Origin: Acidobacteriota bacterium
GTDB lineage: Bacteria; Acidobacteriota; UBA6911
Assembly: GCA_012719355.1 (NCBI GenBank)
Contig: JAAYAM010000069.1
Span: forward strand, 1 to 41,762
Direction of reading: 5' to 3'
Length of the DNA stretch: 41,762 nucleotides
Position numbers and translations under genes: made by a program. Each line of letters begins with the position of its first letter. The stretch's first letter is position 1. The notes below the pieces were generated by a model, which was given only the letters and a program-made list of their open reading frames with translations, did not search any database and was not told where the DNA came from. Positions 3,003 to 31,303 of the stretch are shown in pieces.

Positions 3003-3803
3003 CTATTCGCCATCCTTGTCGTGGAAAAAGTCACTCACCTGATTTCTAACGAGCGCTTCGCGCTCCCAGTAGGCATACTCTTCCATTCGCTCATGCTGGC
3101 TTTTCTGGATATGCTGAGAGATGGCTTGCATCGCCTTCTCCATATCCCCATCCGCAAGAGCGCTAATCATATTCAGATGCTCATTGTGAATTCTGGCCAG
3201 GGCTTCGGCCGTATGTCCTGCGTGGCGTGCTGCAAAAGCGCGGATCAGATATCGCACCTTATTGTAAAATTTCAGTGAAACGGAATTTCCCGCCACACTC
3301 ATGAGGAATGTGTGGAAGCGGATATCGGCCATTTCAAACTGCCGCATTTGCGCGTTGCTCAGATTCTTTTTTCCCGATTTGACCAATTCATTCCTCAATG
3401 TCTCGATCTCTTCGGCGAGGGCATGGAGCCTTTCGAGTTCTTTTCCCGACAATGTGCGTGTGGCTATCTTCGAAACCGCATGGGATTCGAGCACGGAGCG
3501 TACTTCGTAGAGCTCTGCAAAGTCCTGCATGGAGAGGCGTACAACGGCAATAACTCCATTGGAATCTTCTTCCAGCAAGCCTTCGCCAAGCAATTGGCGT
3601 ATCGCCTCATGTACAGGTGTGCGGCTGATGCCGAGTTCGGCCGCCAGGGCTACCTCGGAAATTGCTGCGCCCGCGGGCAGTTCACGGCCGGCAATTTTCT
3701 GCAGGATAAACGCGTAAGCTCTCTGGCGTGCGGATTTTTGATTGCCCTTCCGGGAATTTGTCTTCGGCAATTTTGGCATGGCGTCGCTCTGTCTCTTCAG
3801 CAT
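3003..3803 (-). CDS. GntR-family transcriptional regulator, FCD domain
   Basis: A 266-residue repressor-type regulator. Residues about 20-85 form the winged helix-turn-helix of the GntR family (ISEVALAAELGISRTPVHEA, then RQLLGEGLLE). Residues about 95-245 are an all-helical FCD ligand-binding domain. Its usual metal-binding positions look intact: Asp and His in ADIRFHTFL, His in RIHNEHLNMI and His in ISQHIQKS. FCD regulators sense small organic acids. The start at 3803 lies 32 bases after the capA-like stop; an internal ATG at 3779 is also possible and neither has a strong RBS. As third gene of the CoA-transferase operon it probably controls that operon and the divergent one, perhaps through the ATGCAT-rich block at 6287-6326. 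Confidence 0.9.
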   Translation of the reverse strand: MLKRQSDAMPKLPKTNSRKGNQKSARQRAYAFILQKIAGRELPAGAAISEVALAAELGISRTPVHEAIRQLLGEGLLEEDSNGVIAVVRLSMQDFAELYEVRSVLESHAVSKIATRTLSGKELERLHALAEEIETLRNELVKSGKKNLSNAQMRQFEMADIRFHTFLMSVAGNSVSLKFYNKVRYLIRAFAARHAGHTAEALARIHNEHLNMISALADGDMEKAMQAISQHIQKSQHERMEEYAYWEREALVRNQVSDFFHDKDGE

Positions 3804-3835
3804 ATAGCCCACTGATGCGCCGGCGCGGCGAATGT

Positions 3836-4951
3836 TTATAGAAAGCGAACCCAGTCTCCGTCCCACGCGAAGTCGGTACGAAGCCCGGCTCTGCCGGTGA
3901 TCTGAGCGATGTAGGAGGCCACTGCTTGACCTCGTGCATCATCGGTGCAAATTTCCGGCTGTCCTTTGGAATTCACCCAGCAGGGAATAAATCCTGCTTT
4001 GCGAACACACCCGGCGCTAATCTCACAAACCGCAATCATTGCATTTCGTGATTCAGGATGAAAGGGATATGTCGGGCAGTCTGGATCCGGCTCAAAGCCG
4101 AACAGTTCCCGGCGCCGGCGAGCCCATTCGAGGCGCTTAGGGCTGGGGTTCGCTTCGATATTCAAAGCCCGGGTCACCGTTACAAAGTTGCCCAATCCAT
4201 GATAGATCGGTTTTCCCTTATAGACCTCGACGCCTCGCAAAATGTGAGCATGATGCGATACCACAATGTCCGCGCCTGCGTCGATCACCGCTTTGGCCAG
4301 AGGGCGTTCGTACATGGCCAAAGCAGCGGGTATGTGCCCGATTCCTTTATGAAGGGCCACAATGACCACATCAACGTCGCGGCGCAACTTCTCCACATCA
4401 GCAACCATTGCTTCCGTGCTCTCGGGTTCGGCGAAGGTGTATATCCGGGGAGGGCCTCCGGGAGATGCGTGATCGAGTTCGTAGTGGGTGATCACATGAA
4501 TGTAGGCGCACCCCGGCCTTTTTTCATTGGCCCATGAATCCTTCGGTCCCACACAGTTGTAACTGAGGGTTCCCACTTTCATATTCCTGCACGCCACGAT
4601 GGCAGGCTTGCGTGCCTCTTCGATACAGCTTCCCGCTCCTGTGGTGGCTATTCCCAATTTTTGCAGCGTTGCCACGGTGTCTTCGATTCCGGCGGGCCCT
4701 GCGTCATGTATGTGGTTTCCGGCCAGCGTGGCCACATGGAATCCGGCATGTTTCAGTGCTGCCAGATTATCCGGATTGCTGGGAGGAGCCGGGATGTCGG
4801 ATGTATTCTCCTGCCCGCGAAGCGTGTGTGGAACTTCCACATGTCCCACCAGCAAATTCGCCTCCCGCAGTTTGCTGCGCGTGAGATCGAAGAATGAATC
4901 GGGCTCCGGTTCGTCCAGGATCAAATCACCCACCAGCATCACCTTGAGCAT
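3836..4951 (-). CDS. CapA-family metallophosphoesterase-like protein
   Basis: A 371-residue protein of the CapA/PgsA family, calcineurin-like phosphoesterase fold. Visible motifs are VGDLILDE near the N-terminus, GHVEVPHTLRG, AGNHIHDAGPAG, ALHKGIGHIP, and VVSHHAHILRGVEVYKGKPI followed by HGLGNF. The family's usual HWG motif is altered to HKG. There is no signal peptide or membrane anchor, so unlike capsule-type CapA it should be cytosolic. Its ATG overlaps the CoA-transferase stop by one base (TGATG), which suggests translational coupling. CapA-like proteins in catabolic operons have no settled biochemical role. A hydrolase acting on a phosphorylated or amide-linked intermediate is possible, but this is inference. 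Confidence 0.85.
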   Translation of the reverse strand: MLKVMLVGDLILDEPEPDSFFDLTRSKLREANLLVGHVEVPHTLRGQENTSDIPAPPSNPDNLAALKHAGFHVATLAGNHIHDAGPAGIEDTVATLQKLGIATTGAGSCIEEARKPAIVACRNMKVGTLSYNCVGPKDSWANEKRPGCAYIHVITHYELDHASPGGPPRIYTFAEPESTEAMVADVEKLRRDVDVVIVALHKGIGHIPAALAMYERPLAKAVIDAGADIVVSHHAHILRGVEVYKGKPIYHGLGNFVTVTRALNIEANPSPKRLEWARRRRELFGFEPDPDCPTYPFHPESRNAMIAVCEISAGCVRKAGFIPCWVNSKGQPEICTDDARGQAVASYIAQITGRAGLRTDFAWDGDWVRFL

Positions 4952-6222
4952 CAGATTACCTTTAGCGCTTTCAGTTCTAAAATTCTCTCCGGTGAATAGC
5001 CCAACATATGGCCATACACTCTGTCATTATGCTCCCCCAACGCCGGAGGCGGTTGATCGAAGCCGATTCGGGAGCCGGAAAACGTGAAGGGCATGCCCAT
5101 GCCGTATACATCCGCTACCGCGCCATACTTTGGATGAAGGAGGGGCTGGGTTTCGCCGCGTCGCACCACCCTTGGGTCTCGCGTGGCTGCATAGGGATCG
5201 CGCACCTCGGCGGCCGGTGCGCCGGCGCGCTCCAGCCGGGTAACTGCCTCTGCCGAGGTCAAGGAGCTGGTGAACCGTTCAATAAACGCATTCAACTCCT
5301 GGAAGTTTTTCACGCGCGCATTGCGTGTGGAGAATCTCTCATCGTCAGCCAGTTCCGGATGGCCGGCAGCTTCAAAGAAGGCGCGGGCCATCGCTTCGGT
5401 CGGGGCGCAAAGAGCAATGAAGCCATCCTTGGTCGGATAAACGCCGAAAGGCGCGAGGCGCGGGAGAGTCTGCCCCGTACGCTGCGGAATCCCGCAGCGT
5501 TCGAGCAGATCAAAAGGTTCCACCGAAACCATCATCGTCAAAGCCCCCAGCATCGAGACGTCGATATGTTGCCCCGCGCCTGTGCGCTGCGCCTGGTGTA
5601 TGGCTGCCATCACGCCAATGACACCGAACATCGGGGCGCAAAGATCGGCCATGGGAATGCCTACTCGAATCGGCGGATCTTCAGGCTCGCCCGAAGTGTA
5701 CATCATTCCGCTTTGAGCCTGAATGATCGTGTCCATTGCCTTGGCCGGGCTGGAATCGTCTTCGCTGCCAAAGCCGGTAATGGAGCAGTAGACCAGCCGA
5801 GGATTTACCGTTTTCATCCAGCCGTAGCCCACTCCAAGACGATCGAGTGTTCCCCGGCTGTAATTTTCGACCAACACGTCGCACCGCTTCAAAAGGTCGG
5901 CAAAAACAGAGCGCCCTTCCGGATGTTTGAGGTTCAGAGTAATGCCAAGTTTGTTGCGCAGGCGGTTGATCGCTGAGACGGATATGTCGTCCGGGCCGCG
6001 GCGGACCAGACTGGCGCCCTCCGCTCCGAGATAGGGGGCGTTCTCGCGGCAAGTGTCCCCGTTGGCCGGATTTTCCACCTTAATCACGTGTGCGCCGAGT
6101 CCGGCGAGCAGGAGGGTCGCAAAAGGCCCTGCCAACGCCACCGTCATGTCCAGAACGGTAATATCGTCCAGGGGCCTTGGGAGTGTGTTTCCTGCTTGTT
6201 CCGTTTTCATTGATCCGTCCAT
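4951..6222 (-). CDS. Class III CoA-transferase (CaiB/BaiF family)
   Basis: A 423-residue enzyme expected to move CoA between carboxylic acids, activating an acid as a CoA thioester. The N-terminus LDDITVLDMTVALAGPFAT and VIKVENPANGD is the family signature. VENYSRGTLDRLG, YCSITGFG and GIPMADLCAP follow; Asp193 in the last motif matches the catalytic aspartate that forms the acyl-anhydride. Length is normal for the family. The frame extends upstream to 6408, but ATG 6222 has a perfect GGAGGAG at 6-9 bases distance and starts just before the conserved region. It is the first gene of a three-gene operon (CoA-transferase, CapA-like, GntR), divergent from the dehydratase-like genes. The acid substrate is unknown. 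Confidence 0.92.
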   Translation of the reverse strand: MDGSMKTEQAGNTLPRPLDDITVLDMTVALAGPFATLLLAGLGAHVIKVENPANGDTCRENAPYLGAEGASLVRRGPDDISVSAINRLRNKLGITLNLKHPEGRSVFADLLKRCDVLVENYSRGTLDRLGVGYGWMKTVNPRLVYCSITGFGSEDDSSPAKAMDTIIQAQSGMMYTSGEPEDPPIRVGIPMADLCAPMFGVIGVMAAIHQAQRTGAGQHIDVSMLGALTMMVSVEPFDLLERCGIPQRTGQTLPRLAPFGVYPTKDGFIALCAPTEAMARAFFEAAGHPELADDERFSTRNARVKNFQELNAFIERFTSSLTSAEAVTRLERAGAPAAEVRDPYAATRDPRVVRRGETQPLLHPKYGAVADVYGMGMPFTFSGSRIGFDQPPPALGEHNDRVYGHMLGYSPERILELKALKVI

Positions 6223-6286
6223 TTCAGCTACTCCTCCGGTTTGTGCATCAAGCCTGAAATACTTTAGTTCAGTATGAAATAAAAAT

Positions 6287-6326
6287 AAAATGCATAATGC
6301 ATGCACATGACATAATATGCATATGT
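6287..6326. promoter_or_regulatory. ATGCAT-rich block in divergent promoter (putative GntR operator)
   Basis: This block lies between the divergent starts at 6222 and 6389. It contains TGCATAATGCATGCA and ATATGCATATGTATGCATAT (the latter running to 6333), a dense set of palindromic ATGCAT words. It matches 539-578 in word order and sequence. It sits directly upstream of a TTGACA (6334-6339), a place from which a bound repressor could block both directions. Assignment to the GntR protein of the left operon is inference. Confidence 0.6.
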
Positions 6327-6333
6327 ATGCATA

Positions 6334-6362
6334 TTGACACGGGTCAGGGATGTGTGAAATAA
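6334..6362 (+). promoter_or_regulatory. Possible sigma70 promoter for the dehydratase-like operon
   Basis: A perfect TTGACA at 6334-6339 is followed after 17 bases by AAATAA at 6357-6362, a poor -10 match. It is 27 bases from the ATG at 6389 and touches the ATGCAT block. The -35 is convincing; the -10 is not. Confidence 0.35.
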
Positions 6363-6388
6363 GCCTGTAATCGAAAAGGTGTTTGCAG

Positions 6389-7570
6389 ATGCCCTCCTCT
6401 AACAGCACAAAGCCTGATTCAATGATGAAACCTTACGATGAAAACGATCCGATAGAGCGGCTGACGTGGCATTATGAGAATCCTTCGGCACAATCCAGAG
6501 GATTGGCTGATCAAGGTTTGCCGGTGGTCGGAGTCACTTCCAACACCGTGCCATGGGAGCTGATTCGAGCCGCAGGAGCGTATCCCTGCGTGATCAATCC
6601 TGGAGATGGCAAACAGGAAGACATCCACCGTTTTATGGAAGAAGGCGTTTTTGAGGAACGCACCCGAGCCATTTTTGGAGCTGCAATATCGGGAGATCTG
6701 CAATATCTCAAGCTCCTGCTGATTCCACGGACCTCCGAGCAGGAATACAAATTGTATCTCTATCTCAGGGAAGTTGCCCGCCGGGAGCCAGGGCGCCGCC
6801 TGCCGCCCGTATACCTTTATGACATGCTTCACTCCCGCTCGTCGGAATCCTACTCCTATGGATTGGAGCGCACGCAAGTTCTCCGGCAGCGGCTCGAGAG
6901 TCTGACGGGCATTCCGATTAGTGAAGGGTCTCTCCGGCAGGCGATCGAGGAATCCAACCGTGCTCGAAAGGCAATCCGGTCGCTGCTCTCGTTGCGGCTG
7001 CAGGAGCCGCGCATGACCGGAACAGAAGCCCTGGCCCTGACCGGAGCATCCTTCCTCATCAGCAGAGATGAATACGCTCAGTTGGCCGAACGTGCAGTGA
7101 AGATGATTTCGGAGCGTGAGTCCCTTGCGGGCAAGAGACTGATGATATCCGGAGCTTCGCTGAATCACCGAAGTCTTCATCAGGTGCTGGAAGAGCATGG
7201 AGCCGTGGTTGTCGCTGAGGATGACTGGTGGGGATCCCGCAGTGCGGGAGGCGATATCGATGTGGATTCCGGAGACCTGTTGAAAGCCATATTTGAGAAA
7301 TACTATCTGGATACCCCGAGTCCGCGCCTATTTCCTTTTGAAGCCGCGGATGCGTGGTTTCAACGGGAATCATTGAATGGGGTCGATGGCATTATTTTCT
7401 ATTTGCCGCCGGAAGACTGCGTTGCGGGATGGGATTACCCCAGGCGCCGGAAATACCTTGATGAGAAGGGCATCCCGCATATGCTTGTGCGTGAGGATGC
7501 CAAGTCTATTTCGGAAGAATGTCACAAGCAGATCGAAACGTTTATATGCAGCCTTAGCCAGGGACGGTAG
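6389..7570 (+). CDS. 2-hydroxyacyl-CoA dehydratase / benzoyl-CoA reductase-like subunit 1 (HgdB/BcrC family)
   Basis: A 393-residue member of the HGD-D family, whose paired subunits hold a [4Fe-4S] cluster and carry out radical elimination or reduction on acyl-CoA. ATG 6389 has AAAAGGTG upstream. Family features include PVVGVTSNTVPWELIRAAGA, the LLLIPRTSEQEYKLYLYLRE segment, LPPVYLYDMLHS, and near the C-terminus DGIIFYLPPEDCVAGWDYP and KGIPHMLVREDAKS. Cluster ligands look unusual: where many relatives have a Cys-Asp pair this protein has Thr115-Ser116-Glu117, and the early Cys motif is absent, while the late Cys in PPEDC is present. Its partner starts 5 bases downstream. The reaction is unassigned; dehydration of a 2-hydroxyacyl-CoA is the family default. 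Confidence 0.8.
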   Translation: MPSSNSTKPDSMMKPYDENDPIERLTWHYENPSAQSRGLADQGLPVVGVTSNTVPWELIRAAGAYPCVINPGDGKQEDIHRFMEEGVFEERTRAIFGAAISGDLQYLKLLLIPRTSEQEYKLYLYLREVARREPGRRLPPVYLYDMLHSRSSESYSYGLERTQVLRQRLESLTGIPISEGSLRQAIEESNRARKAIRSLLSLRLQEPRMTGTEALALTGASFLISRDEYAQLAERAVKMISERESLAGKRLMISGASLNHRSLHQVLEEHGAVVVAEDDWWGSRSAGGDIDVDSGDLLKAIFEKYYLDTPSPRLFPFEAADAWFQRESLNGVDGIIFYLPPEDCVAGWDYPRRRKYLDEKGIPHMLVREDAKSISEECHKQIETFICSLSQGR

Positions 7571-7575
7571 ACATC

Positions 7576-8880
7576 ATGGCGGAAAAGCAGCTCGATTGCA
7601 CTCTTGCAGCCGGCGAGCATCAGAGAACCTGGTTTGCACAGCTCAGGAAGGATGTGTTTGAAAGGCAGCGGCCTTACGCCATAGTTCAGGCAGACATGCC
7701 CTTCGAGCTTTTCCAGGTAATGGACATGCCGGCCGTGAGCAACCAATGGTGGGCCGCCATCATTTCGGCCAAGCGACTTTCGTCCTATTACCTCGATGTC
7801 TTGAATTTTCTCGGGTTCCATAGCGGGCTCTGCCGGTACTGCAGTCTGGCGGCCGCATCGACGCTGGCAAACGATCCGGACCGGGCTCCATGGGGCGGGC
7901 TGCCCAAACCGGCGCTGCTTTGTGCAAGACTCACCTGTGATTGTCTTCAGCGGGTTTTCGGAATATGGGCCGAGGCCTTTGGGTCAGAATTTGTTTTTCT
8001 TGATAATCCGGGCGCAACAGAACTGCCGCCCCGCTGGTGGGAACTCAGCCGCTATCATTGGCGTGAACTCTTTGAAGCGCACCGCCTGAGATTCACGGTG
8101 GAACAATTTCAACATCTAATCAGGGTGCTCGAACGGGTCACGGGGAATAAATTCCGGATTGAGCGCCTGCGCGATCTGATGGAGCGCGTCAACCGCCAGG
8201 AGGAGTACTTCGAGGAAGCATGGCAGCTGATCTGCTCCGCACCCAGAACTCCGGTGCGAATGCACGAACAGGTGGCGAATGTCATGGCTGCGCAATGGGA
8301 GCGCGGCAGTGATTGGGCCGTGGGTCATGCCCGCAGCTTCCGTGACGAAATCAGGAATCGGGTAAGACAAGGAGTCGCGGCATGCTCGAATGAGCGCCTG
8401 CGCCTGATGTGGGTAGGCGCCGGACTTTGGCACGACACCGATTTTTATACGGCGTTCGAGGAAGAACTCGGCGCCGTTTTCGTGTGGTCCATGTATCTGG
8501 CCTTCGGCCCCGACGGATATATACGCTATGGTTTGGACGATCCGCTGATGGCGCTGGCAAGCCGCACCGTCAGCATGAATGAGCAGTTGCACAATCCGCC
8601 ATGGGCCAACGAGTGGGTGGTTCACCAGGCCCGGCTGCACAGAATTGATGCCGCTCTTGTGCTGACTCCGCTGGGAACCAAGCCCGCGGCTTCAGGTAAT
8701 CGCTTTATCGAAAGAGCTTTGGAGGAGGCGGGAATCCCTGTGCTGCCGGTTGTTGCCGATATGGTCGACAGCCGCGGATGGGACCCGCAAAACATGCGCC
8801 GCAAAGTTGCTGAATTCCTGACAACGCGCGTTCTGTCGCGAACGCAGCGAGGGCAGGGCGTCCGGCATACCGGCTTCTGA
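7576..8880 (+). CDS. 2-hydroxyacyl-CoA dehydratase-like subunit 2 (HgdA/BcrB family)
   Basis: A 434-residue partner of the preceding protein, starting 5 bases after its stop. N-terminal FHSGLCRYCS (Cys86, Cys89) and ARLTCDCLQRVFGIW (Cys121, Cys123) match the first two cluster-ligand regions of the family. LMWVGAGLWHDTDFYTAFEE resembles the usual segment opening the second domain. At the third ligand region, where relatives have a Ser-Cys-Arg sequence, this protein reads LTPLGTKPAASGNRF with no Cys. So this subunit keeps the first two ligand regions and the partner keeps the third. The two may form one heterodimer with a rearranged cluster set. No activator ATPase of the HgdC/FldI type is present in the window; it would have to be encoded elsewhere. 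Confidence 0.8.
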   Translation: MAEKQLDCTLAAGEHQRTWFAQLRKDVFERQRPYAIVQADMPFELFQVMDMPAVSNQWWAAIISAKRLSSYYLDVLNFLGFHSGLCRYCSLAAASTLANDPDRAPWGGLPKPALLCARLTCDCLQRVFGIWAEAFGSEFVFLDNPGATELPPRWWELSRYHWRELFEAHRLRFTVEQFQHLIRVLERVTGNKFRIERLRDLMERVNRQEEYFEEAWQLICSAPRTPVRMHEQVANVMAAQWERGSDWAVGHARSFRDEIRNRVRQGVAACSNERLRLMWVGAGLWHDTDFYTAFEEELGAVFVWSMYLAFGPDGYIRYGLDDPLMALASRTVSMNEQLHNPPWANEWVVHQARLHRIDAALVLTPLGTKPAASGNRFIERALEEAGIPVLPVVADMVDSRGWDPQNMRRKVAEFLTTRVLSRTQRGQGVRHTGF

Positions 8881-8901
8881 AGAACGAATGTCGAGGTGTT
8901 C

Positions 8902-10134
8902 ATGAAAGCGGAAAAACATAAGGGGAATGCGGAAAGATCGTGGATTGTCCCGTTTCTTGCAACGCTTTTCGGAATGTTGACCCTTCAAATGTCCAATCTG
9001 GGATTTTCTCCCCTGTTGCCTGACATCCAGAAGGAGTTCTCAATGAGCCATACCCAGATCGGGCTTTTCACGGGAATGTATGGCTTGCTGGCTTTGGCAC
9101 TAAGCGTTCCTGCCGGTCTGGCGGCGAAGCATTACGGTGAGAAGCGGGTGCTGGTTGTGGCTCTCTTTCTGGTGGGATGCGGATTATTCATGCTGGGCAG
9201 GGCGCCCGGCTTTTTTTCGGCTTTCGCAGCCCGCGCTGTATGGATCGCCGCTTACCGGTTTGCATTCGTTGGAGTCCTGACGGCTATTGCCCTCACAGCA
9301 CCCCCTTCTCTGAAGGGATCCTCAATGGGCCTCCTGGGATCGACTGCCTCACTGGCTACGGTAATCGGAGCTCCTTTCGGCAGCAAAATCGGCGAGCTCT
9401 TCGGCTGGAGAACCGGAATGACAGGTTTCGCCTGTGCCGCTGTTCTCGGCTCCTTTATCATGTGGGCATTTTACCGCCAGAAATCCGGCGTACGGGAGCA
9501 GGTGCCGATGCACAATATCGGCAGTTCGCAGGAAGGAGGACGGAGCGCATTCCGGTCGCCCGTTGTCTGGGCCCTTACCATTCTGGTGGGATTGGTAGGG
9601 ATGGCCTCCTATAGTGTGACCTTCTTTGTTCCTGCCGCCGCAAGCGCCATCTTCAAAATGGATGCCGTCGGAGCTTCTCTCGTCATCAGCACGGGGTACG
9701 TTTGTGCAATTTTTCTGAACCTTCTTGCCGGCTATTTGATGGACCATTACAACAGATGGATTGTTCTTGGCTCGCTCCTGCTGGTGTTGATGCCCGCCTC
9801 TCTGGCTATGACCATCGGGAATGAGCTGGTATTCCGAATCGCCACGGCAGTGGTACTTGCAGTAGGGTTCGCTGCGACGAATCAAGTGTATGGTCTCGCC
9901 GGAAGCGTGCTGAGGGGCCGGGAAACCGGAAATGTAATGGGTGTATTGAGCCTTGGTGCGGGAATCTGCGGTTATGTGGGGCCTCAAATGCTCGGGCTGC
10001 TGCGCGAATGGACGAAAGGATTCGCCGCCGGGTGGTACATGATGGCCGGCATCGCATTGTTGACGTTGATCCTTCTATTGCTGCTGAAACGCCACAGTGA
10101 GAAGCGTCAGGTCGAGACGGTGGCGGCCGCTTAA
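8902..10134 (+). CDS. MFS transporter
   Basis: A 410-residue integral membrane carrier of the major facilitator superfamily. Hydrophobic helices run through the whole length, in two halves separated by a hydrophilic loop near residues 195-215 (YRQKSGVREQVPMHN). The first half begins with FLATLFGMLTLQMSNLGFSP and LPDIQKEFSMSHTQIG, typical of organic-anion porters that import carboxylates. ATG 8902 follows GAGGTG closely; a GTG six bases upstream is an alternative. It lies 21 bases after the dehydratase-like pair, so the transported molecule is probably the substrate or product of that pair or of the CoA-transferase. Substrate identity is inference. Confidence 0.88.
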   Translation: MKAEKHKGNAERSWIVPFLATLFGMLTLQMSNLGFSPLLPDIQKEFSMSHTQIGLFTGMYGLLALALSVPAGLAAKHYGEKRVLVVALFLVGCGLFMLGRAPGFFSAFAARAVWIAAYRFAFVGVLTAIALTAPPSLKGSSMGLLGSTASLATVIGAPFGSKIGELFGWRTGMTGFACAAVLGSFIMWAFYRQKSGVREQVPMHNIGSSQEGGRSAFRSPVVWALTILVGLVGMASYSVTFFVPAAASAIFKMDAVGASLVISTGYVCAIFLNLLAGYLMDHYNRWIVLGSLLLVLMPASLAMTIGNELVFRIATAVVLAVGFAATNQVYGLAGSVLRGRETGNVMGVLSLGAGICGYVGPQMLGLLREWTKGFAAGWYMMAGIALLTLILLLLLKRHSEKRQVETVAAA

Positions 10135-10157
10135 CGGAATGAACCCGAGTGCAAAAT

Positions 10158-11111
10158 ATGAAAGGGACATTCGCAGTGAATACTAATCCTTCTTTCCGAA
10201 AAGGGGCGTTGCTCCTGTGTATTGCTTTTGTTTTGGGCATTCCGGCAACGCTGCTGCGGGCACAGACGTCCGCACCCATACCATTCGGCTGTGCCATTGA
10301 TGCCCGGGACCAGACGCGCGAATCCCGGGCGCTTGCAAAAAGCATTGCCTCTCCCGGCGGCCCGCAATGGCGCGCAAAGGGCGACCTTCACCGGAAGTAC
10401 CATTTTCCTGCAGCCAACGCGGATATGCCCTATCGTTTGTATGTTCCGACTACATGGGATGGAAAAGCTAAACTGCCTCTGGTTATGATCCTGCACGGTG
10501 CCGGGTCGGATGAAAACTGGTATGTCGATGCGAATGACAAGCAGCTGATTCGACTGGCTGAACAACACGGATACCTGCTGGTCTCGCCGTTGGGCTACAC
10601 CCGTATGGGAGCCTACGGAACGCCGCTGCGCCTTCCGGCGGTTTTCGGAAATCCCGAAATCGCCGCAAAGCAGCGTGCAGCGGTAACCCCCGAACAGGAG
10701 CGAACCCTGGAACTCAGTGAGAAGGATGTTATCAATGTGCTCGAGATTGTGCTCAGCGAGTATCCCGTTGACCGGCGTTCAATGTTCCTGACCGGACATT
10801 CCATGGGAAGCGGCGGTACGTGGTATCTCGGCGCCAAGTATGCGCAGTATTGGGCCGGCATTGCGCCCATGTCGGGCCCGTTTGTGGACGAAGCTAATTA
10901 TCCGTGGGAAAACATACGTAGAATGCCGGTGTTTATGACGGAAGGGACAGGGGCAACTCCATCGCTTGTCGGAAGCAGGGCTATGTTTGCCTGGATGAAA
11001 GAGCACGGCTTCAAGATTGAGTATATGGAGGTGAATGCCGATCATGGCGGCATGATTCCACTCGTGTTGCCAAGCATTTTTAAGTTTTTTGATCGTTGCA
11101 GATCCAAGTAA
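10158..11111 (+). CDS. Exported PHB-depolymerase/feruloyl-esterase-like hydrolase
   Basis: A 317-residue exported alpha/beta hydrolase. A basic N-terminus and hydrophobic core (RKGALLLCIAFVLGIPATLL) form a signal peptide ending near RAQ. The body has PYRLYVPTTWDGKAKLPLVM, the oxyanion-hole ILHGAGSDENW, HGYLLVSPLGYT, the nucleophile elbow GHSMGS (Ser215), and a C-terminal ADHGG with the probable catalytic His. This is the pattern of the PHB-depolymerase / feruloyl-esterase group acting on polymer-linked esters. ATG 10158 lies 23 bases after the MFS stop, without a clear RBS; a GTG at 10149 is an alternative. It probably belongs to the dehydratase-MFS operon, linking ester hydrolysis outside the cell to uptake of the released acid. 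Confidence 0.8.
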   Translation: MKGTFAVNTNPSFRKGALLLCIAFVLGIPATLLRAQTSAPIPFGCAIDARDQTRESRALAKSIASPGGPQWRAKGDLHRKYHFPAANADMPYRLYVPTTWDGKAKLPLVMILHGAGSDENWYVDANDKQLIRLAEQHGYLLVSPLGYTRMGAYGTPLRLPAVFGNPEIAAKQRAAVTPEQERTLELSEKDVINVLEIVLSEYPVDRRSMFLTGHSMGSGGTWYLGAKYAQYWAGIAPMSGPFVDEANYPWENIRRMPVFMTEGTGATPSLVGSRAMFAWMKEHGFKIEYMEVNADHGGMIPLVLPSIFKFFDRCRSK

Positions 11112-11151
11112 CAGTTGCCGGGAGGCATGTGCCCCCCGAGAGGGAGGATCA

Positions 11152-12849
11152 ATGTCTTTTTCGAATTCGAAAAGCAGCAGCAAACTGAATCGCCGCGAGG
11201 CGCTGCTATTGTCTGCAACCGCAGGCGCCGCTGTGCTGGCAGGAGCATCCTGCAGTTCGAGCGGGAACACGCATACAGGGGCGCCCAATGCAGCGGCTGC
11301 GAGCTGCAGTACGCCGCGGACGGCCATTGCCAACACACAATACGGAAAGGTTCGCGGCTATGTCGAGGATGGCGTCCTGACGTTCAAAGGCGTTCCCTAT
11401 GGCGCGGACACAGGAGGAGAAAATCGTTGGCTGCCGGCCAAACCGCCCGCGCGTTGGGATGGCGAGTACCCCGCGCTGACCTATGGGGCCAATTGCCCTC
11501 AGAACCTGCATAACTGGTCGAGCGAGCAGACATTTCTTCAACAGTGGACTGACGGCTGGCAGAGCGAAGACATGCTCAAACTGAACATTTGGACTTCCAG
11601 CCTGACGGGCAAACGGCCTGTGATGTTTTATATTCATGGCGGCGGCTTCAGCTTTGGCTCGGCGTACGAGCTCGCTTCGCAGGATGGAGCGCAGTTGGCG
11701 CGCCATCACGATGTGGTATCCGTAACAGTAAATCACCGCCTCAACATACTTGGATTCCTCGATGTATCCTCCATCGGCGGAGAGGCGTATGCCGATTCGG
11801 CGAATGTCGGGATGACGGATCTGGTCGCGGCGCTTCGATGGGTTCGGGATAATATCGCAAATTTCGGCGGTGATCCGGATTGCGTGATGATTTACGGCCA
11901 ATCCGGCGGCGCCTCCAAGGTGACCACGCTGCTGGGAATGCCCTCGGCCCAGGGATTGTTCCATCGCGCTGCGGCCCACTCAGGCGGTGGTGGGGATGCA
12001 CCCAGCGCGGAGCAGTCCAGAGAATACGCTAAACGCGTTTTTGCCGAGCTCGGTGTTAGAGACATCGCAGCACTCCAAAAGATGGAATGGTCCCGATTGA
12101 ATGCGGTCGCCAGCGCCGTTGCGGCCAAAATGAATCCGCCCATGGGAGTGTATGGGCCGATCGCCCCTCCGGGAGTAGAGAAACCACGCGTGGGTTGGGG
12201 GCCGACCTGCGATGGACGCGTTATTACGATGAAGTCTTTCTTCGATGCAGCTCCCGAAATATCGAAGAACATTCCGATGCTGATCGGCTCCGTGAGCGAA
12301 GAAGGGAATTCCATGCTGTCCCGGCCAACAGAGGCGGAGTGGAAGGCCAACCTTACAAAGTGCTACGGTGAGGCTAAAGCTGTTGCATTAATTGCAGCCA
12401 TGAAAAAGGCGCATCCGGAAAAGAGCATCCGGAAGCTGTCCTATATGTGCAATGGCAGCGGCCTGAACACGTTCAATATCTGCAACAATGCCATACGCAT
12501 GGCCACCATGAAGTACCAGCAAAAGGGGGCGCCGGTGTTTCTATGGTATTTCTCCTGGCAGTCGCCGATGCTGGAAGATGCCGGCGCCTGGCATACCGCC
12601 GAACTGGCCTTCTGCTTCGACAACACGAAGCGCTGCGAACAGGGCACGGGCAACGGGCCGGAGGCACGAGCGTTGGCTAAGAAAATGGCGACCGCCTGGG
12701 CCAATTTCGCTCGCACCGGTAATCCGAGTCAGCCGGGATTGGCATGGGAAGCGTTTGATCCGAAGCGGTGCCAGACCATGGTGTTTGATAACGACTGCCG
12801 GATGGTAGACGATCCGGAAGGCGATGTGCGCAAAATCCTGCTTTCCTGA
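11152..12849 (+). CDS. Type B carboxylesterase, Tat-like signal
   Basis: A 565-residue carboxylesterase of the para-nitrobenzyl-esterase/cholinesterase family. ATG 11152 has a strong AGGGAGG site. Residues 13-34 read NRREALLLSATAGAAVLAGA and then Ser-Cys; the twin Arg (14-15) suggests Tat export, and Cys34 could be a lipid anchor although the lipobox is not perfect. Family motifs include VYGADT-like VPYGADTGGENRW, SEDMLKLNIWT, the oxyanion FYIHGGGFSFGS, the nucleophile elbow GQSGGA (Ser251), SVSEEGNS for the acidic residue, and AWHTAELAFCF with the catalytic His. Such enzymes hydrolyse small aryl or alkyl esters. It follows the previous esterase by 40 bases, probably on the same transcript, and is followed by a large hairpin. 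Confidence 0.9.
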   Translation: MSFSNSKSSSKLNRREALLLSATAGAAVLAGASCSSSGNTHTGAPNAAAASCSTPRTAIANTQYGKVRGYVEDGVLTFKGVPYGADTGGENRWLPAKPPARWDGEYPALTYGANCPQNLHNWSSEQTFLQQWTDGWQSEDMLKLNIWTSSLTGKRPVMFYIHGGGFSFGSAYELASQDGAQLARHHDVVSVTVNHRLNILGFLDVSSIGGEAYADSANVGMTDLVAALRWVRDNIANFGGDPDCVMIYGQSGGASKVTTLLGMPSAQGLFHRAAAHSGGGGDAPSAEQSREYAKRVFAELGVRDIAALQKMEWSRLNAVASAVAAKMNPPMGVYGPIAPPGVEKPRVGWGPTCDGRVITMKSFFDAAPEISKNIPMLIGSVSEEGNSMLSRPTEAEWKANLTKCYGEAKAVALIAAMKKAHPEKSIRKLSYMCNGSGLNTFNICNNAIRMATMKYQQKGAPVFLWYFSWQSPMLEDAGAWHTAELAFCFDNTKRCEQGTGNGPEARALAKKMATAWANFARTGNPSQPGLAWEAFDPKRCQTMVFDNDCRMVDDPEGDVRKILLS

Positions 12850-12859
12850 CCTTCGCAGC

Positions 12860-12907
12860 CTCCAGCCACGAATTTCATGAGCCGGCTCGTGAAACTCGCG
12901 GCTGGAG
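12860..12907 (+). terminator. Long imperfect hairpin between esterase and activase genes
   Basis: CTCCAGCC (12860-12867) pairs with GGCTGGAG (12900-12907), and TTTCATGAG (12873-12881) pairs with CTCGTGAAA (12886-12894) around a CCGG loop. The 5-base stretches between them also pair partly. There is no T-run after it. It may end the operon by a factor-dependent route or protect the transcript end. Confidence 0.5.
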
Positions 12908-12945
12908 CGATCATATCAGGAAGCCGCTGTCCATAGAGTGACGCG

Positions 12946-13866
12946 ATGGCCAATTCGGACGATGGAATTATCTTCAACATCCAGGGATATTGCATCCACG
13001 ACGGCCCCGGCATCCGCACTTCGGTCTTTCTAAAGGGATGCCCGCTGCGCTGCCTCTGGTGTCAGAATCCGGAGTCTCATTCGTTTCATCCCGAGCTCCT
13101 CTTTGTAGAGGAAAAATGCACCGGGTGCGGGACGTGCATCCAGGTCTGCCCGGAAAAGGCAATCCGCATGCGCGGAAGGTCATCCCGGACGGATCAGCAG
13201 CTCTGCCGAGGCGCAGGATTGTGTGCGGAAGCCTGTCCCAGCGGGGCTAGAAATTTGATCGGACGCCGGACAACGGCCGATGACGTCTTCAAAGAGGTCG
13301 CGGCAGATTCGTTGTTCTACCACGAGTCGGGAGGCGGTGTTACGTTGAGCGGCGGAGAGCCCCTTGCGCAACTCGAATTCGCGGCCGCCATTCTGAGGAA
13401 ATGCCGGGATGCCGGATTTCACACGGCGCTGGACACCTGCGGGTATGCAAGCTGGACTACCGCGAAAGAGGTCCTGCGGTATGCAAGCCTCGTGCTTTTC
13501 GATTTCAAGCACATGAACCCGGAAATGCACAGGAGATACACGGGAGTATCAAACGAGCTGATTCTGCAGAACGCAGAGAAGATTCATCATGAGATGTCGG
13601 TACCGATGCGAGCCCGCGTAACACTCGTTCCCGGTTTCAACGATTCCCGGGAAAATCTCGAGGCCACCGCCGAATTCATTGCCGGAAGACTGTCGAACGC
13701 CATTCCGGTTCATCTGCTTCCCTACCACCGCCTTGGGGAAACCAAGTGGCAGGGACTGGGAAGGAAACATGAGACTGCATCCATTGAAGTCCCCGGTGAA
13801 CGGCAATTGGAGATGTGCAGCCGGATTTTTGAATCCTTCGGCCTGAGTGTGATCATGGGCGGTTGA
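12946..13866 (+). CDS. Glycyl radical enzyme activating enzyme (radical SAM)
   Basis: A 306-residue PflA-type radical SAM enzyme that would install the glycyl radical on the neighbouring enzyme, using S-adenosylmethionine and a reduced [4Fe-4S] cluster. The N-terminus IHDGPGIRTSVFLKGCPLRC holds the CX3CX2C radical SAM motif (Cys32, Cys36, Cys39). An inserted ferredoxin-like domain follows, as in activases of non-PFL glycyl radical enzymes. Its first motif CTGCGTCIQVCP is complete (Cys58, 61, 64, 68). The second, CRGAGLCAEACP, has Cys87, Cys93 and Cys97 but Ala90 in place of the usual second Cys. GGGVTLSGGEP is the family's Gly-rich SAM-binding strand. The gene ends 4 bases before the glycyl radical enzyme start, so the two are surely cotranscribed. 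Confidence 0.93.
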   Translation: MANSDDGIIFNIQGYCIHDGPGIRTSVFLKGCPLRCLWCQNPESHSFHPELLFVEEKCTGCGTCIQVCPEKAIRMRGRSSRTDQQLCRGAGLCAEACPSGARNLIGRRTTADDVFKEVAADSLFYHESGGGVTLSGGEPLAQLEFAAAILRKCRDAGFHTALDTCGYASWTTAKEVLRYASLVLFDFKHMNPEMHRRYTGVSNELILQNAEKIHHEMSVPMRARVTLVPGFNDSRENLEATAEFIAGRLSNAIPVHLLPYHRLGETKWQGLGRKHETASIEVPGERQLEMCSRIFESFGLSVIMGG

Positions 13867-13870
13867 TTCT

Positions 13871-16315
13871 ATGAAAGGGACCGGCTTTGTTGCCGCGGGG
13901 TGTTTTGGAGAACTGGAGAGCATGATGGGAGTACTGGCAGACAAGATACGCAGGAGAGGGTTTCCTTTATCTATCGAGAAGGCGCGCCTGATTACCGAAT
14001 CCTATCAGCAGACAGAGGGCGAGCCGTCCATCATAAGGTACGCCAAAGCCTTCTCCTATATGCTGGAAAATATGCCTGTCCTGATAGACCGCGACGAGCT
14101 GCTCGTCGGTGAAGGAGCCAGCATACCGTGGGGAGCCGAGATAGATCCGTTTTTGGGAGTGTGGCGGGAAGAGGAGATCAAGGCGGCAGCCGAAGAGGGT
14201 ATCATCACTCTTGACGAAATAGACTGGCCGCTGTTCAGAGAGCTTGGCAGGTATTGGGAAACCAGGTGCTCCGAGTACATTCAGTCGAAGCTTTTCGATG
14301 AGAGGATATTCAGGTACCTGCAGCTCGGCATTACACTTCCACCGATGAAAAGAAAAGATGAGTTCAGGGGAGCCTATGCCGGCTCCGGACTCTGCCTGTC
14401 CTTTGCCTTCACTGACTGCTATTCCGACTTTTCGAGATGGCTGAACGGATTGAATCCAATAATCCTGGAAGCGGAAGAAGAACTCCGGAATTTGAGGTTC
14501 TTCAGTCTGGACGATGTGGAGAAAAAACTGTTTCTGGAAGCGGCCATAATCGTGCTGAAAGCGGCAATCAGGCTGGCCGACAGATATTCTGAGGCGGCCG
14601 GGGCGCTGGCCGAGATCGAGGCAGATACCCGTCGGAAAGAAGAGCTGAGGAAAATTGCGGAAGCTTGTCGTCGGACGCCGGCCGATCGTCCCGAGAACTT
14701 TCACCAGGCTATGCAGTCGCTATGGTTCAATCAACTCCTGTCCGCTCCCACTTCGACCCATAATCTGGGCAGATTCGATCAATACATGTATCCCTTCTAT
14801 AAAAAAGATATCGAGGAAGGCAGAATCAGCAATGACGAAGTCCTGGACCTGTTGTGTGAACTGCGCATTAAATGCATGAAGCCTGAAAATATCAAGCTCT
14901 CAGGCGCCAAGCGATCCCAGCACGCAGGCTTCGCCAAATGGCGGAATATGACCATCGGAGGAGTCACAGCCGACGGCAAAGATGCCACCAATGAGCTGAC
15001 CTATCTGGTCCTTGAGGCGGCCAACAGGTGCAGAACGGCGCACCACACCATCACCTTGAGAGTTCACGAAAACACGCCGGAAGATCTGCTATTGAAGGCG
15101 CTGGATGTTGTTAAAACAGGCATCGGCATGCCGGCCCTGGCACTGGACAAATCCTTTCTCGACTACATGACCTCCGGAGGCATACCGGTGGAAGAAGCCC
15201 GCAATTACCACCTCGCCGGGTGCGTAGATCCGGCCATTCCGGGAAAAGCCAGTTTCCTGGCAGGCAGCTTTTTCGTAGTTCCCAAGGTCCTGGAAATTTT
15301 CTTGAACGACGGGGTGGATCCGCGCACGGGTCTGACAGCCTATCCCTGCAGATTGCCCGTTGATGATATAGAGACCTTTGATGAGCTCTATGAGGCATTC
15401 AAGAGCACCCTTTCCTATTTTATCGGCCTCTGGCATGAACACAGCTTCCTCAGTGGACATCCCAAGGACTACTACGATGTTGTCGAAATCCTGGAAACGG
15501 TTCTGATGCAGGATGGAATCAAGACAGGCAAGCCCCTGTCCAGGAGAAAGCCGGTGCCGCCGTATGACTTCAGGGCGGCGATGGTGCCCGTCGGCGCCAT
15601 CAATGCGGCAGATTCCCTGGCAGCAATAAAGATGCTGATCTTCGATGAAAAGAAGTTGTCCATGAAAGCGCTGAGGCAAGCATTGGCTGATAACTGGGAA
15701 GGCCACGAAAATATCAGAAGGATGTGTCTGCAGGCGCCCAAATACGGAAATGACAACGACTTTGTGGACTCCATAGTCAAAGATCTCTACAGGTTTCTAA
15801 TAGACGAGGAAGCGAAATATTGCACCTTCGGACGGCCCGAGTATGCGAAAATCCGTGGAATTGGAGGTGCCTCCATTTCATCGATGTTTGCCGGCGGCGC
15901 CATAGTCGGGGCAACGCCCGACGGGAGACACGCCGGCACGACCCTGGCTGACGGGACGGCCTCTCCTGCCCAGGGACGGGACACACACGGGCCTACGGCA
16001 ATGCTCAGGAGTGCGGCGAAGATCGATCAGTCCATGTGTGCGTCGACGCTTCTAAACGTGAAGCTTCATCCATCGTCTTTGAGGAGCCGGGAGGACCTGA
16101 AGAAACTGGGAAGCCTGATCAAAGCCTACGCTGCCATGGGAGGCAAATGGATTCAGTTCAATGTCGTTGGAAACAGCCAGCTGCTCGAAGCTCAGAAGTT
16201 TCCTGAAAGGTATCGCGACCTGATCGTGAGAGTGGCAGGATACAGCGCCTATTTTGTCGACCTGAATAAAGGCGTTCAGGATGATATCGTCCGACGCATG
16301 GAGGTCAGCATCTGA
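13871..16315 (+). CDS. Glycyl radical enzyme, substrate unassigned
   Basis: An 814-residue glycyl radical enzyme of the PFL-like dehydratase/decarboxylase type. The N-terminal KARLITESYQQTEGEP and IDRDELLVGEGAS are family landmarks. The thiyl-radical Cys is in NYHLAGCVDPAIPGK (Cys451), and the glycyl radical site is RVAGYSAYFVDL near the end (Gly790). Choline lyase, glycerol dehydratase and arylacetate decarboxylases have Cys-X-Glu at the active site; here it is Cys451-Val-Asp453. I therefore do not name a substrate. An alternative start at 13922 has GGAG upstream and begins closer to the conserved region. Many Arg codons are AGA or AGG, unlike the activase gene, which hints at separate origin. 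The enzyme is O2-sensitive by nature, so it marks an anaerobic lifestyle. Confidence 0.92.
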   Translation: MKGTGFVAAGCFGELESMMGVLADKIRRRGFPLSIEKARLITESYQQTEGEPSIIRYAKAFSYMLENMPVLIDRDELLVGEGASIPWGAEIDPFLGVWREEEIKAAAEEGIITLDEIDWPLFRELGRYWETRCSEYIQSKLFDERIFRYLQLGITLPPMKRKDEFRGAYAGSGLCLSFAFTDCYSDFSRWLNGLNPIILEAEEELRNLRFFSLDDVEKKLFLEAAIIVLKAAIRLADRYSEAAGALAEIEADTRRKEELRKIAEACRRTPADRPENFHQAMQSLWFNQLLSAPTSTHNLGRFDQYMYPFYKKDIEEGRISNDEVLDLLCELRIKCMKPENIKLSGAKRSQHAGFAKWRNMTIGGVTADGKDATNELTYLVLEAANRCRTAHHTITLRVHENTPEDLLLKALDVVKTGIGMPALALDKSFLDYMTSGGIPVEEARNYHLAGCVDPAIPGKASFLAGSFFVVPKVLEIFLNDGVDPRTGLTAYPCRLPVDDIETFDELYEAFKSTLSYFIGLWHEHSFLSGHPKDYYDVVEILETVLMQDGIKTGKPLSRRKPVPPYDFRAAMVPVGAINAADSLAAIKMLIFDEKKLSMKALRQALADNWEGHENIRRMCLQAPKYGNDNDFVDSIVKDLYRFLIDEEAKYCTFGRPEYAKIRGIGGASISSMFAGGAIVGATPDGRHAGTTLADGTASPAQGRDTHGPTAMLRSAAKIDQSMCASTLLNVKLHPSSLRSREDLKKLGSLIKAYAAMGGKWIQFNVVGNSQLLEAQKFPERYRDLIVRVAGYSAYFVDLNKGVQDDIVRRMEVSI

Positions 16316-16355
16316 ACAATATCCCGAAAAACCGGATCTTCCCTCGGGGGGTACT

Positions 16356-17276
16356 ATGACAATGATTTGCGCAGCATGCTGCAAAGTCGGTTTGTTGAGT
16401 CTGCTCTTCGCGGCTGCGGCCGCCGGAACAGTCCTGGCACAGGACAACACGGCGCCGTTCCCGGGCTTCATAGGCGAACAGGGAGGAGGCGGCAGCATGC
16501 CGGCCGTCGCACAGTCACGAGCCGACCTGCGCACCCATACCCTGTACCGTCCCGTATCGCTGCCGGCGGAGCCGTTGCCTTTGCTGATCTGGGGCAATGG
16601 AGGCTGCAGCGACAACGGACTGTCACATGACAGGTTTTTGCGCAACATCGCCTCCCACGGTTACATCGTCATTGCGCTGGGCTATGCGTGGCGGCGCCCG
16701 CTCCGCAAAGATCCTGCCGGTCAGCAAAAAGACCCCACTGATGTCTCCCAGATGAGCCAGGCCATGACATGGGCCGCCAGCCGCACTGCGGACCCTGCCG
16801 ACGAGTTGTACGGGCACATCGATACCAGCCGGATCGCTGTGGCCGGCCACAGCTGTGGCGGCCTGCAGGCCATTAAGATTTCAGCCGACCCGCGCATCTC
16901 GACCTCGATGATTTTCGACAGCGGCGTGTACAACAAGGCCGGCGGCCTCAGCAGGATCCAGGTGAGCAAGGATGAACTGGCTGGTCTGCGTGGCCCGATT
17001 GCCTACTTCACCGGGGGGCCGACCGATGTTGCCCATCTCAATGCCGCCGACGACGTCAAGCGTATCAAGCATGTCCCGGTCTTCTTCGGCTGGTTGCCCG
17101 TGGGACACGGTGGCACGTTTTCGGCGCCCGATGGAGGCGACTGGGCGGAAGTGGCCGTTCACTGGCTTGATTGGCAGTTGAAGGGAAACCGTTCGGCCGG
17201 GGACTGGTTCCTCGGCAAAGACTGCAGACTGTGTCGCGATAAGCGCTGGACGATCGAACAGTTCGTCAGTCCCTGA
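16356..17276 (+). CDS. Exported alpha/beta hydrolase (intact paralogue of the frameshifted gene at 827)
   Basis: A 306-residue exported alpha/beta hydrolase. ATG 16356 follows GGGGGG and starts a signal peptide (KVGLLSLLFAAAAAGTVLA, cut near AQD). The mature region has LLIWGNGGCSDNG, HGYIVIALGY, the nucleophile elbow AGHSCGG (Ser166), LPVGHGGTFS with the likely catalytic His, and HWLDWQLKG. It closes with KDCRLCRDKRW, a CxxC pair shared with the frameshifted paralogue. Serine hydrolases of this type act on esters, sometimes on PET-like aryl esters, but the substrate here is unknown. It starts 40 bases after the glycyl radical enzyme. Its last 170 bases are duplicated at 18567-18725. Confidence 0.82.
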   Translation: MTMICAACCKVGLLSLLFAAAAAGTVLAQDNTAPFPGFIGEQGGGGSMPAVAQSRADLRTHTLYRPVSLPAEPLPLLIWGNGGCSDNGLSHDRFLRNIASHGYIVIALGYAWRRPLRKDPAGQQKDPTDVSQMSQAMTWAASRTADPADELYGHIDTSRIAVAGHSCGGLQAIKISADPRISTSMIFDSGVYNKAGGLSRIQVSKDELAGLRGPIAYFTGGPTDVAHLNAADDVKRIKHVPVFFGWLPVGHGGTFSAPDGGDWAEVAVHWLDWQLKGNRSAGDWFLGKDCRLCRDKRWTIEQFVSP

Positions 17277-26737: not shown

Positions 26738-27191
26738 CGAGCAGGAGCCGCACGGCGTCGGCGCCCGTGGCGGCGCGTTCCGGGGTGGCATACGAAGGCG
26801 TGTGGGTGATGCGGTCGACGAGAAGGCCTACCAGATAAATGCGTGTTTCGGCTGCGGGATTCAGCATCCGGAAAAGCTTGATCGCGGTAACGGGTGTCAT
26901 CTGATGCGCGCTCGCTGAGACCTCGTTCCAGCACGAAAAGCTGTCTTCCGCCACCGTTATGACATGTCCGGGAGATCCCATTTTCCCATTGGGGTCAAGA
27001 ATCGCATCGATCAGGATGACCTGGCCGTATCCGGAAAAGTCGTCCAGGTGATTCAGCAGGTCTGTTCCTGCATCCGCGGCGACTGTTTCCGGGGGAAGGC
27101 CGCTCCTGCTCAAGACATCGAGCACCAGGGATCCGAAGGCGTCGTCACCGCTAAGCGGGTTGCCCAGCGCCAATATCAGAGTCCTGACCAA
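26697..27191 (-). CDS. Hydrogenase maturation protease (HycI/HyaD family)
   Basis: A 164-residue endopeptidase that clips the C-terminus of the [NiFe] hydrogenase large subunit after nickel insertion. The N-terminus LALGNPLSGDDAFGS has the first metal-binding acidic residue, VILIDAILD the second and SASAHQMTPVTA the His. It is the last gene of the hydrogenase operon; its start overlaps the end of the histidine kinase gene by 41 bases. At its other end it overlaps the convergent molybdenum hydroxylase gene by 41 bases. The client is most likely the large subunit encoded at 29233-30528. Confidence 0.92.
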   Translation of the reverse strand: MVRTLILALGNPLSGDDAFGSLVLDVLSRSGLPPETVAADAGTDLLNHLDDFSGYGQVILIDAILDPNGKMGSPGHVITVAEDSFSCWNEVSASAHQMTPVTAIKLFRMLNPAAETRIYLVGLLVDRITHTPSYATPERAATGADAVRLLLAKSAPAPSEHDQE

Positions 27192-29151: not shown

Positions 29152-29232
29152 GGAGAAAAAGAATACAGAAGCCGGGAGCAGGAAGCCAGAAGCAGTTTGT
29201 TCCGGCTTCCTGTTTTTCCGGAGGATGCCCGA

Positions 29233-30528: not shown

Positions 30529-30530
30529 TC

Positions 30531-31295
30531 CTATCCCCTCTCCTCAGTTCTGTCCAGCACGGGGGCGGCAAAGACCCTGAGTTTGAGTTTGATTTGTTCT
30601 TTGGGAAGCTCCTTATCTCCGAATATCTGTTCAATCGAGGCCATGTTGGCTTCTTCAACAGGGCCTCTGCAGCCGATGCAGGCGATGTTGTGGCTGGGGC
30701 AGCGTGCATCACAGCCGGCCATCGTGACGGGCCCGGCGCAGGGAAGTCCACGCTGAACCAGGAGACACTCGTTCTCCTTCATCTTGCATTCGAGACAAAC
30801 CGGGTATGTCGGCATCAGCGGCATGTCGCCGTTGAGGAGCGCCGACACTGCCCGTACGAATTCGGTTGTTTCCATCGGGCAGCCGGGGATTGCAAGATCC
30901 ACTTTCACGAAATCCGAGAGCGGCCGGTGCGGCCCGATATCCCATGATTTTATGGGACCGTTGCTGCCGTACACCGTTTCAATCACTTTGGGCCGTTCAA
31001 ATGGAGCGTCCATGGCGCTGACACCGCCAAAGCAGGCGCAGCTGCCGCAGGCGACGACAAGATCGGAACGTTCCCGGATCTGGCGGATCTTGGCCTCTTC
31101 GCGGGCGTTGGCCACGGATCCTTCAACGAACGAGACAAGGAGCCGGCTCTCGGCGTCATTGACAGAAGAACCGCCAAGGAAGTCGACGATGTCGACGGCT
31201 CCGATAATATCGAGCAACTGATCTTCGCAATTGAGGATGGCGATCTGTTCGCCCCAACAGCCGCTCAGTCCGAATATGCCAATTTTGGGTTTCAC
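30531..31295 (-). CDS. hydD: [NiFe] hydrogenase group 3b small (delta) subunit
   Basis: A 254-residue electron-transfer subunit with three iron-sulfur clusters. The start is GTG 31295, with GAGGTGACC upstream and 8 bases between it and the gamma stop. The proximal cluster region reads LSGCWGEQIAILNCED: Cys13 is present, but the position of the usual second Cys of a Cys-X-X-Cys pair is Glu16, with another Cys at 23. The later ligands are in ACGSCACFGG and AIPGCPMETTEF. The C-terminal clusters use YPVCLECKMKENEC, GLPCAGPVTMAGCDARCPSH and ACIGCRGP. Everything else matches a functional subunit, so Glu16 may be a real alternative ligand. Confidence 0.93.
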   Translation of the reverse strand: MKPKIGIFGLSGCWGEQIAILNCEDQLLDIIGAVDIVDFLGGSSVNDAESRLLVSFVEGSVANAREEAKIRQIRERSDLVVACGSCACFGGVSAMDAPFERPKVIETVYGSNGPIKSWDIGPHRPLSDFVKVDLAIPGCPMETTEFVRAVSALLNGDMPLMPTYPVCLECKMKENECLLVQRGLPCAGPVTMAGCDARCPSHNIACIGCRGPVEEANMASIEQIFGDKELPKEQIKLKLRVFAAPVLDRTEERG

Positions 31296-31303
31296 AGGTC
31301 ACC

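Follow-up and report, generated by a model that had tools for sequence, protein, structure and literature searches.

We analyzed a stretch of 41,762 nucleotides from an Acidobacteriota bacterium (contig JAAYAM010000069.1; hereafter the window), in which one open reading frame encodes a glycyl radical enzyme (GRE), an oxygen-sensitive type of catalyst, termed GRE-A. The Pfam profiles for the PFL-like domain (PF02901) and the Gly_radical domain (PF01228) matched GRE-A at 1e-143 and 2.7e-28, respectively. The protein fits the GRE superfamily, with a PFL-like barrel and a C-terminal Gly-radical domain carrying the RVxG[FWY] motif as RVAG790Y (radical motif RVAG790YS, glycyl loop IVRVAGYSAYF). The mid-protein radical-loop cysteine is Cys451, which lies in the loop NYHLAGCVDPAIPGK (NYHLAGC451-V-D453-PAIPGK) and aligned with Cys433 of glycerol dehydratase and Cys434 of HypD. 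It is preceded by Gly450, and thus the Cys-Cys pair of PFL is absent. The frame and its Cys451-Val452-Asp453 motif were found exactly where a preliminary description of this DNA had placed them. Translation probably begins with the ATG at 13922 (residue 18), since the first 17 residues are absent from most orthologues and GGAGA is found just upstream; Cys451 would therefore become Cys434. An AlphaFold2 model built from five orthologues had a pLDDT of 38.8 and was discarded.

Table 1. GRE-A and the genes around it in the window.
Feature	Position	Strand	Evidence and remarks
GntR/FCD transcriptional regulator	3003..3866	-	PF07729, PF00392; orthologue directly beside GRE-B in G113, G242
PGA_cap (CapA-like) protein	3836..4951	-	PF09587 9.4e-53; 78-80% orthologues
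CoA-transferase family III	4951..6408	-	PF02515 2.6e-106; 76-81% orthologues in G113, G242, G266 clusters
Second HGD-D subunit	6383..7570	+	PF06050 1e-41; 69-77% orthologues
2-hydroxyacyl-CoA dehydratase / benzoyl-CoA reductase-type subunit (HGD-D)	7576..8880	+	PF06050 1.7e-47; 82-88% orthologues
MFS transporter	8896..10134	+	PF07690; 78-82% orthologues; kept in G250, G266 clusters
Secreted esterase-like alpha/beta hydrolase	10149..11111	+	PF00756; 75-80% orthologues in G113, G242, G250, G266 clusters
Carboxylesterase type B	11089..12849	+	PF00135; signal/lipoprotein-like N-terminus; annotated ORF start uncertain
Radical-SAM GRE activase	12946..13866	+	TIGR02494 348.9 bits vs cut-off 174; stops 4 bases before GRE ORF
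Cys-X-Asp glycyl radical enzyme (GRE-A)	13871..16315	+	814 aa; Cys451, Asp453, Gly790; PF02901 + PF01228; orthologue alignment
Secreted chlorophyllase/PETase-like alpha/beta hydrolase	16281..17276	+	downstream of GRE; 80% orthologue downstream of G266 GRE

GRE-A is the last gene of a catabolic cluster comprising a regulator, a family III CoA-transferase, a pair of HGD-D subunits, a transporter and secreted esterases (Table 1). The regulator, PGA_cap and CoA-transferase genes lie on the minus strand (3003-6408), and the genes from the HGD-D pair through the GRE lie on the plus strand (6383-16315). The activase upstream of GRE-A carries a CX3CX2C motif (CPLRCLWC) and two ferredoxin-type cluster motifs, and its orthologues adjoin the GRE at four further loci (L067, L006, L008, L065). 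The preliminary description had seen no known partner beside the enzyme. This held for microcompartment shell proteins and a decarboxylase small subunit, neither of which was found among the window genes scanned, but not for the activase and the conserved catabolic cluster, both of which adjoin GRE-A. No BcrAD/BadF activator was found in the cluster, such genes being located elsewhere in the genome, and promoter and terminator scans gave signals not above shuffled expectation. The HGD-D subunit at 6383-7570 has five cysteines in the open frame, fewer than its partner, and may lack the usual cluster ligands. The catabolic cluster included the PGA_cap protein in at least three species.

Most cluster genes were also present in two related genomes (G113, contig C339; G242, contig C107), encoding proteins 70-87% identical to those of the window, with a subclade-B GRE (GRE-B; see below) beside the GntR gene. 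In G266 and G250 the cluster included the MFS gene (partly in G250, where the contig ends), and the Cys-X-Asp GRE lay on another contig. The HGD-D gene at 7576-8880 was used as a marker. Its orthologues (82-88%) were found in 5/5 genus members with a Cys-X-Asp GRE and in 0/10 other genomes (five genus members without such a GRE and five further members of the family; best match 26%), counts that are not corrected for kinship. The cluster was not found in the genomes of Dehalococcoidia or of SM23_31, so linkage to HGD-D characterizes the genus of GRE-A. FAD_binding_2 flavoproteins were encoded near the GRE in G266, G113 and SM23_31.

Esterase genes adjoin the GRE in the window, G266, G113 and G397 (bacterium SM23_31), a recurrence that crosses phyla. 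The window carboxylesterase lies upstream of the activase, the G266 carboxylesterase is divergently placed by the activase and the GRE, and the COesterase of SM23_31, 64% identical to that of G266, lies ~100 bp upstream of the GRE. In G266 and the Dehalococcoidia genome G396, S15-type esterases were found downstream of either the GRE or its activase. By our own arithmetic, with 7 matches in 4.57 Mb, a carboxylesterase within 3 kb of the window GRE is roughly a 1-2% event; the corresponding figure is ~1% or lower for SM23_31 and ~3% for G266. The SM23_31 contig (L008:12618-17968, G397:C142:19204-23284) also encodes UGSC-family proteins, a second activase and two more GREs (36%, 32%) besides the Cys-X-Asp GRE.

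Close relatives of the source genome were Acidobacteria metagenome-assembled genomes. A scan of genome contigs recovered four orthologues of GRE-A with 74-89% identity (subclade A), two of them from Acidobacteria and one each from a Dehalococcoidia genome and bacterium SM23_31. Genome searches identified a second subclade (B) with 45-48% identity to GRE-A, found in three members of the genus of GRE-A and in the same Dehalococcoidia genome. Both subclades were encoded in G113 and G396, and the clade spans Acidobacteriota, Chloroflexota and a third lineage. All members carry Cys-Val/Leu-Asp and hence lack the eliminase Cys-X-Glu motif. The Asp was invariant in the 9 distinct members (five A, four B; 45-100% identity) and was absent at this position (Cys+2) from every other GRE among the 62 aligned. 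Chance or an assembly error as the source of Asp453 was therefore excluded, since the nine sequences came from separate assemblies, and the invariance argues for a role of the Asp within the clade. The radical Cys and Gly, Arg809 and the activase were likewise intact across both subclades and all three lineages, and GRE-A is by these sequence features predicted to be a working glycyl radical enzyme. No relatives of the Cys-X-Asp GREs were found in a scan of viral contigs, and a plasmid scan returned distant GREs and one relative from Novosphingobium, nothing else. We found no description of Cys-X-Asp in GREs in the open literature searched.

GRE-A scored far below the cut-offs of all NCBIfam equivalogs, including those for HPAD (378.5 bits vs 1150), IAD (459.9 vs 1100) and pyr_form_ly_1 (110 vs 994), and below that of the PFL2-3 subfamily (552 vs 678). 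It thus lies outside every characterised GRE group that could be tested in this way, a result that supports part of the preliminary description. NCBIfam scores gave no separation of GREs like the structurally determined enzyme 7E7L from other GREs. Among PDB entries, the top single score was that of glycerol dehydratase (418 bits); TutD, BSS and MasD were weaker matches (277-299 bits), BSS having no row in the tree described below.

To place GRE-A, a maximum-likelihood tree of 41 GREs was built, with HPAD, IAD, PAD and the X-succinate synthases left out and PflB removed because of long-branch trouble in a first tree. The Cys-X-Asp enzymes of both subclades and the Novosphingobium plasmid GRE (Cys-Leu-Gly) formed one clade (100/100). 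Its sister comprised 7E7L and three Cys-Val-Gln GREs from the Dehalococcoidia genome G424, with 99/94 at the joint node. Glycerol dehydratase, 9RCO, CutC, HypD, 8ID1 and 8IOF were separated from the clade of GRE-A by a 100/99 branch. Forcing 7E7L to the eliminases lowered the log-likelihood by 39 and was rejected by the AU test (p = 0.0005). The Cys-X-Asp enzymes and 7E7L share a one-residue insertion in the DG-x-xSP motif and ten residues (R332, H391, T393, L411, P573, Y640, A715, Q720, K745, K759), none of which was found in five Cys-X-Glu references (glycerol dehydratase, HypD, CutC, 9RCO, 8ID1). In the clade alignment, His164, His281 and Asp447 of glycerol dehydratase were replaced by Asp/Leu, Ser/Pro/Gly and Ala, respectively. 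Together, these results indicated that the Cys-X-Asp GREs are a small clade of two subclades within no characterised group. The motif is a feature of a clade, and no clustering inside a characterised group with Cys-X-Asp, which the preliminary description had named as contrary evidence, was observed.

The PDB title of 7E7L is hydroxyphenylacetic acid decarboxylase, and we take this entry to be the Olsenella scatoligenes AAD discussed in PMC9248008. Judged from sequence comparison, this single-subunit hydroxyphenylacetate/arylacetate decarboxylase, not a Cys-X-Glu eliminase, is the characterised enzyme nearest to GRE-A. Like GRE-A, it has no small subunit. However, the two enzymes come from different phyla, differ in aligned pocket residues and in the Cys loop (Cys-Val-Leu in 7E7L), and share 32.7% identity, no higher overall than that of GRE-A to glycerol dehydratase (32.0%). 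With this identity and a long branch (1.17), 7E7L is best taken as a relative and not as an orthologue, despite the 99/94 node and the AU test. The G424 GREs, 39-41% identical to GRE-A, have Gln instead of Asp; in this 5.0-Mb genome of the Dehalococcoidia class, 26 candidate GRE places were seen at first look, an unusual number, and the three that were read (L047, L059, L062) are Cys-Val-Gln. The GRE on the Mpl plasmid of Novosphingobium sp. PP1Y (L046) is 38-45% identical to the clade, is nested beside subclade B and has an esterase-like gene nearby, but it has lost the acid (Cys-Leu-Gly) and its Gly loop reads RIGGCS. Novosphingobium is a genus known as aerobic. This megaplasmid GRE (L046:8881-11379) has transposase-like ORFs upstream and is without annotation in PLSDB.

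The residue at Cys+2 has been studied in several GREs. In eliminases, the Glu of Cys-X-Glu holds or deprotonates the substrate hydroxyl and is essential (PMC7077986, PMC8473560). The HPAD and IAD decarboxylases also have Glu at this position (PMC6181972), and an IAD E502Q variant, made 'to mimic PAD', kept the radical but did not make skatole, indicating that the Glu is needed in IAD (PMC9248008). From the design of this variant we infer that PAD has Cys-X-Gln. The preliminary description had started from the premise that characterised decarboxylases have Cys-X-Glu, which fails for 7E7L and, on this inference, for PAD. Among the GREs that fall with 7E7L in the tree, relatives had Leu, Gln, Ser, Asn, His or Gly at Cys+2, and Cys-X-Glu occurred in one distant row only (L050). 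Cys+2 is thus free on this branch and Asp is one further state, so it is not clear that the Asp arose by shortening of a Glu. Since the position is free over the whole branch (Asp, Gln, Leu, Ser, Asn, His, Gly), Cys-X-Glu should not serve as a guide to function except among the eliminases. In the wider branch, uncharacterised GREs from Dehalococcoidia loci (L044, L048-L061) show Ser, Leu, Asn, His, Gly or Arg where the acid would stand or at an adjacent residue.

We tentatively read GRE-A as a radical decarboxylase, or a similar lyase, that may act on an acid released from an ester. Its placement beside 7E7L, the AU test, the shared signature residues and insertion, and the replacement of the three glycerol dehydratase residues all point to a decarboxylase, and the role of the acid in IAD (PMC9248008) was counted for it as well. 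HPAD and IAD resemble GRE-A in having an acid at Cys+2, but GRE-A misses their equivalog cut-offs and has no HPAD small subunit beside it. An acid freed from an ester is suggested by the esterases that adjoin the GRE; an aryl, hydroxyaryl or hydroaromatic acid would be our guess. The cluster marker, found in 5/5 genus members with the GRE vs 0/5 without, was also counted for the main reading. Against a decarboxylase stand the nearly equal identities to 7E7L and glycerol dehydratase, the long 7E7L branch, the absence of HPAD, IAD, PAD and the X-succinate synthases from the tree, and the HGD-D class, which could equally follow a dehydratase. The Leu of 7E7L also counts against it, and because of this Leu a role of the Asp in decarboxylation does not follow. 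Quinate or chlorogenate as substrate found no support in the literature searched.

In the proposed scheme, secreted esterases would free the acid from its ester and the MFS protein would import it. The activase would generate the Gly790 radical, which would oxidize Cys451 to a thiyl radical that attacks the carboxylic acid. CO2 or another small fragment would be lost, and the product radical would regain a hydrogen atom from Cys451. Asp453 may take the part of Glu505/Glu502 of HPAD/IAD and handle the proton next to the Cys, and the CoA-transferase and HGD-D pair would handle, as a CoA thioester, either the acid that remains or a parallel one. For the clade as a whole, it is conceivable, if somewhat doubtful, that these enzymes perform a radical reaction new to GREs. 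The substrate would be an acid split from a plant ester or some other ester, and the reaction would open, or form a branch point in, an anaerobic pathway that also employs the family III CoA-transferase and the divergent HGD/benzoyl-CoA-reductase-like pair.

The first idea was an eliminase whose acid had been shortened; it was demoted after the tree and now appears unlikely. GRE-A would then be a dehydratase or a lyase of C-N or C-O bonds, with Asp453 standing in for the essential Glu of Cys-X-Glu (PMC7077986, PMC8473560) in deprotonating or holding the substrate hydroxyl, and the esterases would supply an alcohol or polyol, not an acid. No residue is chemically closer to Glu than Asp, ester hydrolysis also releases alcohols, and glycerol dehydratase gave the best single PDB score. 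The eliminases (glycerol dehydratase, CutC, HypD, IslA, HpsG) further share with GRE-A the superfamily, the Cys and Gly loops and similar general scores. However, the tree and the AU test put GRE-A away from all eliminase references, with glycerol dehydratase, CutC and HypD across the tree; the diol ligands of glycerol dehydratase are not kept, and Gln, Leu and Gly in relatives leave the ancestral state at Cys+2 not clearly Glu.

A GRE of a new type that cleaves or forms C-C bonds in aromatic or hydroaromatic compounds (e.g., by ring cleavage, acyl transfer or fumarate addition) is improbable. The varied loops of the wider Dehalococcoidia branch (Ser, Leu, Asn, His) suggest many still unassigned reactions, and an HGD-D pair with a CoA-transferase typifies the anaerobic catabolism of aromatic compounds or amino acids, but the accessory subunits of X-succinate synthases were absent from the clusters read and the PDB scores to BSS and MasD were weaker. 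That GRE-A is an ordinary or decaying paralogue with Asp as neutral variation at a free loop position is very improbable: relatives do have Gln, Leu, Ser, Gly, Asn or His at Cys+2, including the Gly of the nested Novosphingobium GRE, but the 9/9 invariance and the intact catalytic residues and activase argue against it.

GREs perform hard anaerobic bond cleavages, and the finding of new GREs has repeatedly accounted for chemistry of the gut and of sediments. The Cys-X-Asp clade offers a testable target, having a loop residue undescribed in the open literature searched and a defined activase, and the transporter and conserved pathway cluster narrow the choice of substrate. Elsewhere in the window, an alpha/beta hydrolase (827-1817) was split over two overlapping frames; in L066 and L088 its homologues are each encoded by one ORF, which points to a frameshift or an assembly error. 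Downstream of the cluster, the region 24272-33359 contains a molybdenum hydroxylase-like gene and a hydrogenase-type set of NiFe large and small subunit-like proteins, a HycI-like protease and an NAD-binding oxidoreductase.
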